Shown in pieces: positions 7,974 to 36,527 of a stretch of 36,527 bases of DNA (positions within the stretch are counted from its first letter, which is position 1; each line of letters starts with the position of its first letter). The stretch comes from Candidatus Acidiferrales bacterium (GTDB lineage: Bacteria > Acidobacteriota > Terriglobia > Acidiferrales > UBA7541): contig JASHRL010000144.1 in the NCBI GenBank assembly GCA_030037355.1, forward strand, positions 1-36,527, given 5' to 3'. The notes under the pieces are model-generated. The model was given only the letters and a program-made list of their open reading frames with translations. It made no database searches and was not told the origin of the DNA. A program made the position numbers and the translations under genes.

Positions 7974-7986
7974 AATCACAGTGATT
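7974..7986 (+). repeat. Small dyad upstream of bshC
   Basis: AATCAC-A-GTGATT is a perfect 6-1-6 inverted repeat in the 156-base gap before bshC. It lies about 30 bases upstream of the predicted -35, so it could be a regulator site. A repeat this short can arise by chance. Confidence 0.25.
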
Positions 7987-8014
7987 GTGGCGTCTCCGGC
8001 CCACGCTGCACTGG

Positions 8015-8043
8015 TTGCTGCGACCGAACGCGCCGTGTATCAT
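8015..8043 (+). promoter_or_regulatory. Predicted promoter for bshC
   Basis: TTGCTG (8015-8020) and TATCAT (8038-8043) are 17 bases apart. The transcript start would fall near 8050, about four bases before the bshC ATG at 8054. No Shine-Dalgarno sequence is present in those bases, consistent with leaderless or near-leaderless translation. Confidence 0.42.
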
Positions 8044-8053
8044 CACATTCTCC

Positions 8054-9664
8054 ATGGAGTGTCACTGTCTTCAGTTCGGCGAAATTCCGGGAACCACGAA
8101 ATTATTCTCAACCTATCTCAGTGATTTTGACCGCGTGAAGGAGTTCTACGCCCACACGCCGGACGAAGCAGGTGTGCGCGCGGCAGCGAAGGAAGTCCGC
8201 CTCGATGCGGGGATCCGCCGAGGCGTCGTGCAAGTCTTGCGTGAGCAAAATCGCAGGTTCGGCTCGACGCGAGAGACGGACGCGAACCTGGACCGTCTGG
8301 CAGATGGCGCCGTGGCGATTGTCACCGGTCAGCAGGTCGGATTGTTCAGCGGCCCGGCCTACAGCGTTTACAAAGCGCTGGACGCGATTCACTGGGCTGC
8401 GCGGCTGACCAAAGCTGGTGTTGACGCCGTGCCGATTTTTTGGATGGCGACGGAGGACCACGATCTCGCCGAAGTCAATCAAGCAAACTTCGGTGTACGC
8501 GAGGGAATTTCGCGCATTGAACTGCTCCTTCCCGAAGACGCCTCGGGAGTCAGCGTCGGGCGGATTCCGCTCGGTTCAATGGCGGCCGCTGCCGTTGCGC
8601 ACGCGGCTGAACTGCTCGAAGGATCTGCAGCGAACGAAGTTGCGGATATGCTCGAAAAATCATACGCCGCCGATGAAACGTTCGGTTCCGCATTTGGAAA
8701 ATTGTTCGCGCGGCTTTTCGGCGGGCGCGGGTTGATTCTGCTCGATCCTCTTGACAGGCGACTGCATGAACTCGCGCGGCCGGTTTACCGCAAAGCTGCC
8801 GAATCCGCGCAGAAGTTGGACGAGGAGTTGACGGCGCGGAGCAAATCGCTCGACCGGCGCGGATATCACGCGCAGGTGAAAGTGACGCGGCAGGGAACGC
8901 TTTTGTTTCTTGAAGTGAAGGGCAAGCGTGTAGCCCTGCGGCGTCGAAATGGTGATTTCGTCGCGAGCGATATGAAGCTGAGCATGGCCGGGATGCTCGA
9001 GAAAATAGATAAAGAGCCCGAAGCGCTCACGGCGAGCGTACTCCTGCGGCCAGTATTGCAAGATTCGATCTTGCCGACAGCCGCGTACATCGGCGGTCCC
9101 GCGGAAGTTGCATACATGGCGCAAGCTCAGGTTACTTACCGCCAGGTACTGGGCCGAATGCCGGCGATCCTGCCACGCGCGAGCTTCACACTGATTTCAG
9201 CAGAGGTGCAGCGCACGCTCGAAAAGTATGGCCTCGATTTTCGCGAGCTCTTGCGCGGCCGCCAATTGCTTCGGCAAAAGATGAAATTGCAGTACGTACC
9301 TCGGGGACTGGCGGCGCGGTTCGGGCGCGACGAGAAATTGCTGTTGCGTGTCTTGGAAGCTTATCGCAAACCGCTCGGCAAGCTGGACAAGACTCTTGCG
9401 GGGGCGCTGGATACAGCCGAGCGCAAAATGCTCTACCAATTTACAAAGCTGCGCAGCAAAACGGGAAACACCGAAAATCTGAGGACGGGAATCCTCGATC
9501 GGCATGAGCGGCAGATTTTGACGGCACTGTATCCGCACCGAGGCTTGCAGGAGCGAAGTCTGTGCCTTTTGCCGTTCTTGGCGCGCTATGGAATGGAACT
9601 GCTGAAACGGCTCGAAAAAGAAATGGAGAAGCCGTGTGCGGGTCACAGAGTGCTGATGCCATGA
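8054..9664 (+). CDS. bshC: Putative cysteine ligase BshC (bacillithiol biosynthesis)
   Basis: BshC is assigned to the last step of bacillithiol synthesis, adding cysteine to glucosaminyl-malate. The 536-residue length is normal. Family signatures are IVTGQQVGLFSGPAYSVYKAL near the N-terminus and VPIFWMATEDHDLAEVN shortly after, then the YIGGPAEVAYMAQ block in the middle; a charged helical segment near residues 430-500 (RKPLGKLDKTLAGALDTAER) fits the coiled coil of the family. I start at ATG 8054 (MECHCLQFGEIPG) because the upstream extension to 7985 is rich in Trp, Arg and Pro and unlike the family. The genes for BshA and BshB are not in the window, so the pathway is presumably scattered in the genome. 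Confidence 0.92.
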   Translation: MECHCLQFGEIPGTTKLFSTYLSDFDRVKEFYAHTPDEAGVRAAAKEVRLDAGIRRGVVQVLREQNRRFGSTRETDANLDRLADGAVAIVTGQQVGLFSGPAYSVYKALDAIHWAARLTKAGVDAVPIFWMATEDHDLAEVNQANFGVREGISRIELLLPEDASGVSVGRIPLGSMAAAAVAHAAELLEGSAANEVADMLEKSYAADETFGSAFGKLFARLFGGRGLILLDPLDRRLHELARPVYRKAAESAQKLDEELTARSKSLDRRGYHAQVKVTRQGTLLFLEVKGKRVALRRRNGDFVASDMKLSMAGMLEKIDKEPEALTASVLLRPVLQDSILPTAAYIGGPAEVAYMAQAQVTYRQVLGRMPAILPRASFTLISAEVQRTLEKYGLDFRELLRGRQLLRQKMKLQYVPRGLAARFGRDEKLLLRVLEAYRKPLGKLDKTLAGALDTAERKMLYQFTKLRSKTGNTENLRTGILDRHERQILTALYPHRGLQERSLCLLPFLARYGMELLKRLEKEMEKPCAGHRVLMP

Positions 9665-34761: not shown

Positions 34762-34872
34762 AAAACTCCTGTTGCGCGCAAAGCTGGCGTTTGCGAGTTG
34801 GACACTCTCTCGCAGGCGCCAGTTGCCCGCGTTTATCGCCTGACATAGTGTGAAGTGATGGAGGCGACTCAC

Positions 34873-35202
34873 ATGGAAGGCGAGGCGGGGGCGATGGCGT
34901 CAGCAGAAGTGTTTCGGCCGTACGAGCGTTTGGTTGAAATCACGGTTCTTGGGAAGACTTTTCTCGTTCCCGAAAAAAACTCTCTGCTGCGCTGCTTTCA
35001 ATTCATCAGTCCCGAAACAATTCCTTATGGCCGCTTCTGCTGGAATCAGGAATGCCAGTATTGCCGCGTCATGTGCCAGCTTCCTGATGAAGATGCTCCG
35101 CGTCCCATTCTGAGCTGCAAGTTCATGGTCTCCCCGGGGATGAATATCACTGAGCTCGCTCCGGAATTGCGTGCTTGCCTGAAAAACAAGCTGGGCGCCT
35201 GA
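34873..35202 (+). CDS. 2Fe-2S ferredoxin-like protein
   Basis: A small 109-residue protein with a beta-grasp 2Fe-2S ferredoxin pattern. After an N-terminal acidic stretch comes a ubiquitin-like start (VEITVLGKTFLVPEKNSLLRC) and a cluster loop RFCWNQECQYC. Cysteines are Cys56-x4-Cys61-x2-Cys64-x17-Cys82, with an extra Cys68, as in plant-type or NuoG N-terminal ferredoxin domains. The redox partner is unknown; no oxidoreductase lies next to it. I choose ATG 34873 because GGAGG lies eight bases upstream; ATG 34858 would overlap that ribosome site and add five residues. Confidence 0.72.
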   Translation: MEGEAGAMASAEVFRPYERLVEITVLGKTFLVPEKNSLLRCFQFISPETIPYGRFCWNQECQYCRVMCQLPDEDAPRPILSCKFMVSPGMNITELAPELRACLKNKLGA

Positions 35203-35975: not shown

Positions 35976-35996
35976 ATGGGGGCCCTTATATTATGA
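35976..35996 (+). other. Possible leader mini-ORF overlapping the ccmE start
   Basis: ATG at 35976 opens a six-codon frame (MGALIL) whose TGA stop overlaps the ccmE ATG as ATGA. This matches the stop/start coupling used by several genes in this window, and ccmE itself has no Shine-Dalgarno sequence. The frame is very short, so chance is a real possibility. Confidence 0.25.
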
Positions 35997-36460
35997 ACGC
36001 CCGGACGAAATTCTCAATCGGCGCCGTCATCATCGTGGGTACGTTGGTGTGGCTCGGGTGGGTCGGCGCATCGCAAAGCAAGACCTATTATCATACGATT
36101 AACGAACTGCAATCTCTTCAAGGAGCCGCACTGCACCAGCGCATGCGTGTCAGCGGCAATGTCGAAGACGGCTCCATCAAGCGCCTGCCCGGTCGCATCG
36201 ATTTCGTGCTTACCGAGGAGGGCAAGACGCTTCCGGTAAGCTACGTCGGCGACGCTCCTCTGCCGGATACATTCAAAGGCGGCGCCCAGGCGCTCGCCGA
36301 AGGCAAGCTCATGCCAGACGGCCGCTTTGTCGCCGAGCAAATCCAGGCCAAGTGCGCCTCGAAATATCAAGCGACGCCTGGCGGTGAGCCTGCGGAACCT
36401 TCGCCAGCGAAATCAACCACTCAAGTTCAGCCAGCAAGCGTGGCAGGCCCGCGCAGTTAA
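35993..36460 (+). CDS. ccmE: Cytochrome c maturation protein CcmE, Cys-type variant
   Basis: CcmE is the periplasmic haem chaperone of the system I cytochrome c maturation pathway, anchored by one N-terminal helix (about residues 8-26). The 155-residue protein has the OB-fold core (MRVSGNVEDGSIKR, DFVLTEEGKTLPVSYVGDAPLPDTF, AEGKLMPDGRFVAEQIQAK). At the haem-binding position, where classical CcmE has His in LAKHDEKY, this protein reads AKCASKY with Cys121 and Tyr125, that is CxxxY. Such Cys-type CcmE proteins are known from some archaea and sulfate reducers. A Pro/Ser-rich tail follows. ccmF starts just downstream, supporting the call. Confidence 0.88.
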   Translation: MNARTKFSIGAVIIVGTLVWLGWVGASQSKTYYHTINELQSLQGAALHQRMRVSGNVEDGSIKRLPGRIDFVLTEEGKTLPVSYVGDAPLPDTFKGGAQALAEGKLMPDGRFVAEQIQAKCASKYQATPGGEPAEPSPAKSTTQVQPASVAGPRS

Positions 36461-36478
36461 CGGGAGCGCAGCGATCCA

Positions 36479-36527
36479 GTGGATATCATCGGTTCCTTTG
36501 CGTTAGTCCTTGCTCTTCTCGCGACGG
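36479..36527 (+). CDS. ccmF: Heme lyase CcmF, N-terminal fragment
   Basis: From GTG 36479 the frame is open to the window edge and encodes about 16 residues, VDIIGSFALVLALLAT. This matches the hydrophobic N-terminus of CcmF, the membrane haem lyase that acts after CcmE, and the position directly after ccmE supports it. GGGAG at 36462-36466 may be the ribosome site. Only the first transmembrane segment is visible, so the call rests on context and a short match. Confidence 0.72.
   Translation, partial: MDIIGSFALVLALLAT

Follow-up and report, generated by a model that had tools for sequence, protein, structure and literature searches.

What kind of cytochrome c maturation system is served by a CcmE protein whose haem-binding histidine is replaced by cysteine? 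The question is raised by the window (the whole stretch of DNA analysed, 36,527 nucleotides, Candidatus Acidiferrales bacterium, GenBank assembly GCA_030037355.1), which is an entire contig, C96, with ccmE at the contig end. The original prediction held that a known variant of CcmE is encoded here and that its maturation system is altered by the loss of some usual components. The features concerned are:

35993-36460, + strand: ccmE, Cys-type haem chaperone, 155 aa, with a Pfam PF03100 (CcmE) match
36353-36355, + strand: codon TGC of Cys121, which replaces E. coli His130
36365-36367, + strand: codon of Tyr125, which corresponds to the axial Tyr134 in E. coli CcmE
36479-36527, + strand: start of ccmF (49 bases, from a GTG), truncated where the contig ends and continuing on contig C60

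The PF03100 match covers residues 31-127 of CcmE (E 4.2e-23; 82 bits against a curated cut-off of 24.6), and the protein is laid out as one N-terminal hydrophobic segment, a membrane anchor, followed by an OB domain. It bears the sequence AEQIQAKCASKYQ, in which the stretch KCASKYQ holds Cys121 and Tyr125. When a profile of CcmE and its relatives was searched against solved structures, the Cys was aligned to His130 of E. coli CcmE (8ce8, 1sr3) and also to the Cys of Desulfovibrio vulgaris CcmE (2kct). The CxxxY motif is thus found where it had been predicted, within 36339-36375 and at the haem site that is HxxxY in classical CcmE. The protein has the Cys for the haem-binding His and the Tyr at +4 of System I*, and does not have the His of classical System I. 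An alignment of 11 CcmE sequences showed K120, C121, S123, K124 and Y125 to be invariant and K-C-x-S-K-Y to be close to invariant. A second CcmE elsewhere in the genome, which if of the His type would have spoken against the original prediction, was searched for, and no further copy, His-type or other, was found; the ccmE of the window is the sole copy.

A frameshifted, chance or sequencing-slip Cys was considered and is ruled out by conservation across Acidobacteriota, since Cys121 is invariant in the alignment and 129 of 147 genomes share the Cys (see below). The Cys could also mark a haem-independent change, CcmE being no longer a haem carrier. We found no support for this in the genome and regard it as very unlikely, given that K-C-x-S-K-Y is near invariant and that the genome, which encodes CXXCH proteins and lacks System II, has no other CcmE. 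What can be said for it comes from the divided literature on haem bonding in other Cys-type CcmE proteins. The Cys of Methanosarcina CcmE is required for haem attachment and the D. desulfuricans protein is reported to bind haem covalently via its Cys (PMC9084895), whereas for the Cys-type CcmE of D. vulgaris non-covalent haem binding via the Cys was reported (PMC3884852, where the axial ligand role of E. coli Tyr134 is also described). Attachment is therefore not to be taken for granted, and covalent haem on Cys121 cannot be assumed.

The genes beyond the window were reached through a 197-base exact overlap between window positions 36331-36527 and C60:1-197 of the same assembly, which covers the 3' end of ccmE and the 5' end of ccmF. 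The C60 locus (L007) continues as follows:

L007:149-2200: ccmF, CcmF_C match 7e-69
L007:2151-2705: ccmH, CcmH family (PF03918) match 7.7e-15
L007:2741-3076: "I", CcmI-like, a membrane protein of 111 residues that contains a CcmI-like coil
L007:3113-4459: protein X, a 448-residue beta-rich membrane protein
L007:4470-5186: ccmA
L007:5187-5861: ccmB
L007:5868-6575: ccmC
L007:6584-6730: ccmD-like ORF of 48 codons

As predicted, ccmF stands immediately 3' of ccmE, with its GTG at 36479. The adjacent genes, read for CcmA-D, CcmH and CcmI, yielded ccmA, ccmB, ccmC and ccmH together with ccmD-like and CcmI-like genes. The labels I, X and ccmD-like are putative; that of ccmD gains support from a Metabacillus plasmid, where the corresponding position holds a gene annotated as "CcmD family protein". 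The haem-ligand residues His173, His261 and His303 and the WWD tryptophans are kept in CcmF, and His60, His184 and the WWD motif are kept in CcmC (E. coli numbering). Past the ccmD-like ORF lie the gene for ferrochelatase (hemH) and then those of a cytochrome bc-type complex, namely for a Rieske protein, for cytochrome b and for a protein in which CXXCH occurs four times; the CXXCH multihaem protein is ca. 4 kb downstream of ccmC. Neither ccmG nor a TPR-type CcmI was seen in the operon. A dsbE/CcmG model found nothing above its cut-off in the genome and several TlpA-like proteins below it, and the genome has genes for CcdA-like and TlpA-like proteins at other loci. System II was considered as the true maturation route and rejected, the genome being without ResB; a search for ResB/CcsB gave no PF05140 match in the genome, and a CcsA-like ORF on contig C154 sits with haem biosynthesis genes. 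In the window itself, the gene at 34855-35202, two genes upstream of ccmE, encodes a protein of 115 residues that has a CQYC pattern and weakly matches 2Fe-2S ferredoxins, and a bshC-like gene (bacillithiol synthesis) at 7985-9664 suggests that the organism makes a low-molecular-weight thiol.

The original prediction thus stands as regards a CxxxY CcmE of a known kind, present as sole copy beside ccmF, and falls as regards an altered system, since ccmF, ccmH, the CcmI-like gene, ccmA, ccmB, ccmC and the ccmD-like ORF all lie in one run. A reduced System I* like that of Desulfovibrio and archaea, which has no CcmH, would share the CxxxY motif of CcmE, and one acidobacterial lineage (families f34, f44 and f16) does look so. 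For this genome it is refuted by ccmH directly after ccmF and the ccmD-like ORF after ccmC, and we consider it almost certainly wrong: with ccmH and the remaining genes on the overlapping contig, the gene set is not the one without CcmH known from Desulfovibrio and archaea.

The Cys-type Ccm bears the name System I* and has CPSKY as its usual motif (2011 review, PMC3601427). By the original definition of 2006 it has no CcmH, which does not describe an operon where ccmH comes straight after ccmF; that criterion was dropped in PMC3601427, where CcmH is counted in about one third of bacteria with a Cys-type CcmE. Since the review allows CcmH, membership rests on the Cys of CcmE, and the genome is of the CcmH-bearing kind. 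The premise of CcmH loss had therefore already been corrected in print (PMC3601427), and the difference lies in the kind of CcmH, not in its absence.

We conclude that this CcmE very probably serves as periplasmic haem chaperone in a complete Ccm of the Cys type (System I*), the ordinary Ccm system of Acidobacteriota. Alongside the observed gene content, gene order, motif, single copy and conservation, we infer each biochemical step of the following pathway. CcmABC(D) would load haem from the inner membrane onto CcmE, where it would be held at Cys121 by a thioether bond or as a thiolate, with Tyr125 as the likely iron ligand. CcmE would then hand the haem to CcmF, which would attach it to the CXXCH apocytochromes that CcmH and the CcmI-like protein present; those of the adjacent bc-type complex are candidate clients. 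Against this explanation stand the non-covalent haem of D. vulgaris CcmE (PMC3884852), the failure of any CcmG to exceed its cut-off and the operon's lack of a TPR-type CcmI.

To place the system in its phylum, 247 genomes drawn from Acidobacteriota were used. CcmE was found in 153 of these and a CcmH-family protein in 120, and the CcmE residue type was read in 147 genomes. It was Cys in 129 of the CcmE-bearing genomes and His in 18; Cys-type CcmE is the rule in Acidobacteriota. All 18 His-type genomes have CcmH, as do 99 of the 129 Cys-type genomes, some of these having the APCC kind only, since 16 stand-alone proteins are of that kind (see below); the other 30 Cys-type genomes are without any CcmH. 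The gene order is mostly E-F-H-I-X-A-B-C-D in the Cys type and A-B-C-(D)-E-F-H in the His type. In the large family f2, F-H-I-X lies apart from ccmE in the five members checked, and the smaller Cys-type lineage f34, f44 and f16 has the order A-B-C-(D)-E-F with no CcmH, making it the one that matches the CcmH-less expectation. A scan of named genomes returned only Acidobacteriota, save two records labelled Acidimicrobiia (the label as given in the records); two Bacillota plasmids carry the order E-F-H-I-X-A-B-C with a CPSKY CcmE. Two genomes have two ccmE copies of the same type each (G235, loci L085 and L220; G210, loci L191 and L197).

Three T4-like phage contigs from IMG/VR (L270, L271/L295 and L272), found with the CcmE profile among viral contigs, carry a full-length Cys-type CcmE with CPSKY:

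L270:7339-7950, same strand as gp23: phage ccmE
L271:8962-9510, same strand as gp23: phage ccmE
L272:2151-2642, same strand as gp23: phage ccmE

The gene follows the major capsid gene gp23 at a short distance and in the same orientation, and in L270 and L271 it is inside the portal, protease, scaffold and capsid cluster. Identity of the phage proteins to acidobacterial CcmE reaches 41-44%, in the clade that has CcmF-CcmH fusions; among 50,697 phage records there was no relative above 24% identity, no PHROG family was matched and one search of the open-access literature gave no report of a phage-borne ccmE. They are possibly phage-borne haem chaperones.

Cys-type CcmE being ordinary for the phylum, the part that deserves specialist attention is the cysteine-rich CcmH. 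The CcmH of the source genome reads IMCMCGGCDEAAGKC and so does not have the classical LRCxxC. It belongs to the CcmH family by both its profile match (PF03918, 7.7e-15) and its three-helix CcmH fold: the model has a pLDDT of 89.8, and its best PDB matches, 2hl7 and 2kw0, are both CcmH (probability 1.00, E ca. 0.04). A comparison with PDB sequences gave no match. CxC(x0-3)C, usually with two more cysteines, occurred in all 117 real CcmH stretches in or near Cys-type operons, two further matches located in the CcmF part of fusions having been left out. Four cysteines were invariant and a fifth nearly so in a 40-sequence CcmH alignment. LRCxxCQ or a one-residue variant was present in CcmH of each of the 10 His-type operons examined, one of which reads LRCPVCQ. 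Away from ccmE, Cys-type genomes had 20 more CcmH-like proteins, 4 of the CxC type and 16 with an APCC motif, so that CxC(x)nC was found in 121 of the ca. 137 CcmH proteins read from Cys-type genomes (117 + 20) and LRCxxC in none. The stand-alone APCC(W) family comes from 16 Cys-type acidobacterial genomes (L275-L286, L289, L290, L292 and L293). With its five-cysteine site for LRCxxC, the source-genome CcmH probably still handles apocytochrome thiols.

Might Cys-type CcmE and cysteine-rich CcmH be a functionally matched pair, the extra CcmH cysteines helping haem release from the CcmE Cys or forming a metal/thiol relay beyond LRCxxC? The contrast between the Cys-type (0 of 117 + 20) and His-type (10/10) CcmH proteins in LRCxxC would fit. 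So would the fusion of CcmH to CcmF in a single reading frame, seen in 21 ORFs from six family-level groups, all with a Cys-type CcmE (ca. 820-975 codons; L088, L089, L090, L096, L097, L099 and 15 more loci), and a difference in CcmC beside His184, where N181/Q185 of the His type are R/P in the Cys type. However, 30 Cys-type genomes are without CcmH, and CcmH of the two Bacillota Cys-type operons has two distant cysteines, in neither LRCxxC nor CxC arrangement. The CcmF tree, in which long branches were flagged, requires only two His/Cys changes, so that no more than one or two events underlie the pairing, which may reflect co-inheritance; support from independent origins is not claimed. We hold the matched pair to be possible and rather doubtful.

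Protein X combines a signal-like N-terminus with carboxypeptidase-regulatory-like and other beta domains, a single membrane helix and a CcmI-like coil. Both Cys-type ccm operons and Bacillota have it as a conserved protein, it being present in 99 Cys-type loci and in no His-type locus; a fold search gave low-coverage matches only, to beta-sandwich domains (TM-score up to 0.28). A wider proposal, slightly less probable again than the matched pair, is that System I* with CcmH is a distinct machine, its Cys-type CcmE matched to a five-cysteine, often CcmF-fused CcmH and to the undescribed protein X. If so, haem would be released from the Cys via CcmH thiols or a metal site and not by an LRCxxC relay. 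System I* poses the question of how haem leaves a Cys, given that a thioether should be stable. With its regular pairing of Cys-type CcmE and a non-classical CcmH, in some cases as a fusion to CcmF, a large phylum provides specific proteins and residues for study, and a Cys-type CcmE implies neither a missing CcmH nor an LRCxxC motif.

Compared with known systems, the very probable complete System I* of the Acidiferrales genome shares with that of D. desulfuricans the Cys for the CcmE His, the Tyr four residues on and CcmABCD-E-F, but differs in having CcmH, in the order E-F-H-I-X-A-B-C-D and in CASKY, not the commoner CPSKY. The streamlined archaeal Ccm (CcmABCEF, Methanosarcina acetivorans) also has a CxxxY CcmE, the Cys of which is needed for haem attachment in Methanosarcina; it is without CcmD, CcmH and CcmI, unlike the Acidiferrales operon with its CcmH, CcmD-like and CcmI-like proteins and single-protein CcmF, which is therefore not of that type. 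With E. coli System I the operon has in common the CcmA, B, C, E, F and H families and the WWD and haem-ligand His residues of CcmC and CcmF; it departs from it in the Cys for His130, a CcmH without LRCxxC, another gene order and no ccmG in the operon. A cysteine-rich CcmH without LRCxxC has a precedent in Archaeoglobales (PMC4600277): the putative CcmH of Geoglobus and Ferroglobus is likewise encoded beside ccmF in organisms with a CxxxY CcmE. There, the motif is LX[SN]C[EDH]C and the neighbour is a duplicate ccmF (PMC4600277), whereas the Acidiferrales CcmH has CxC(G)x(0-2)C with two more cysteines and stands beside the only ccmF.
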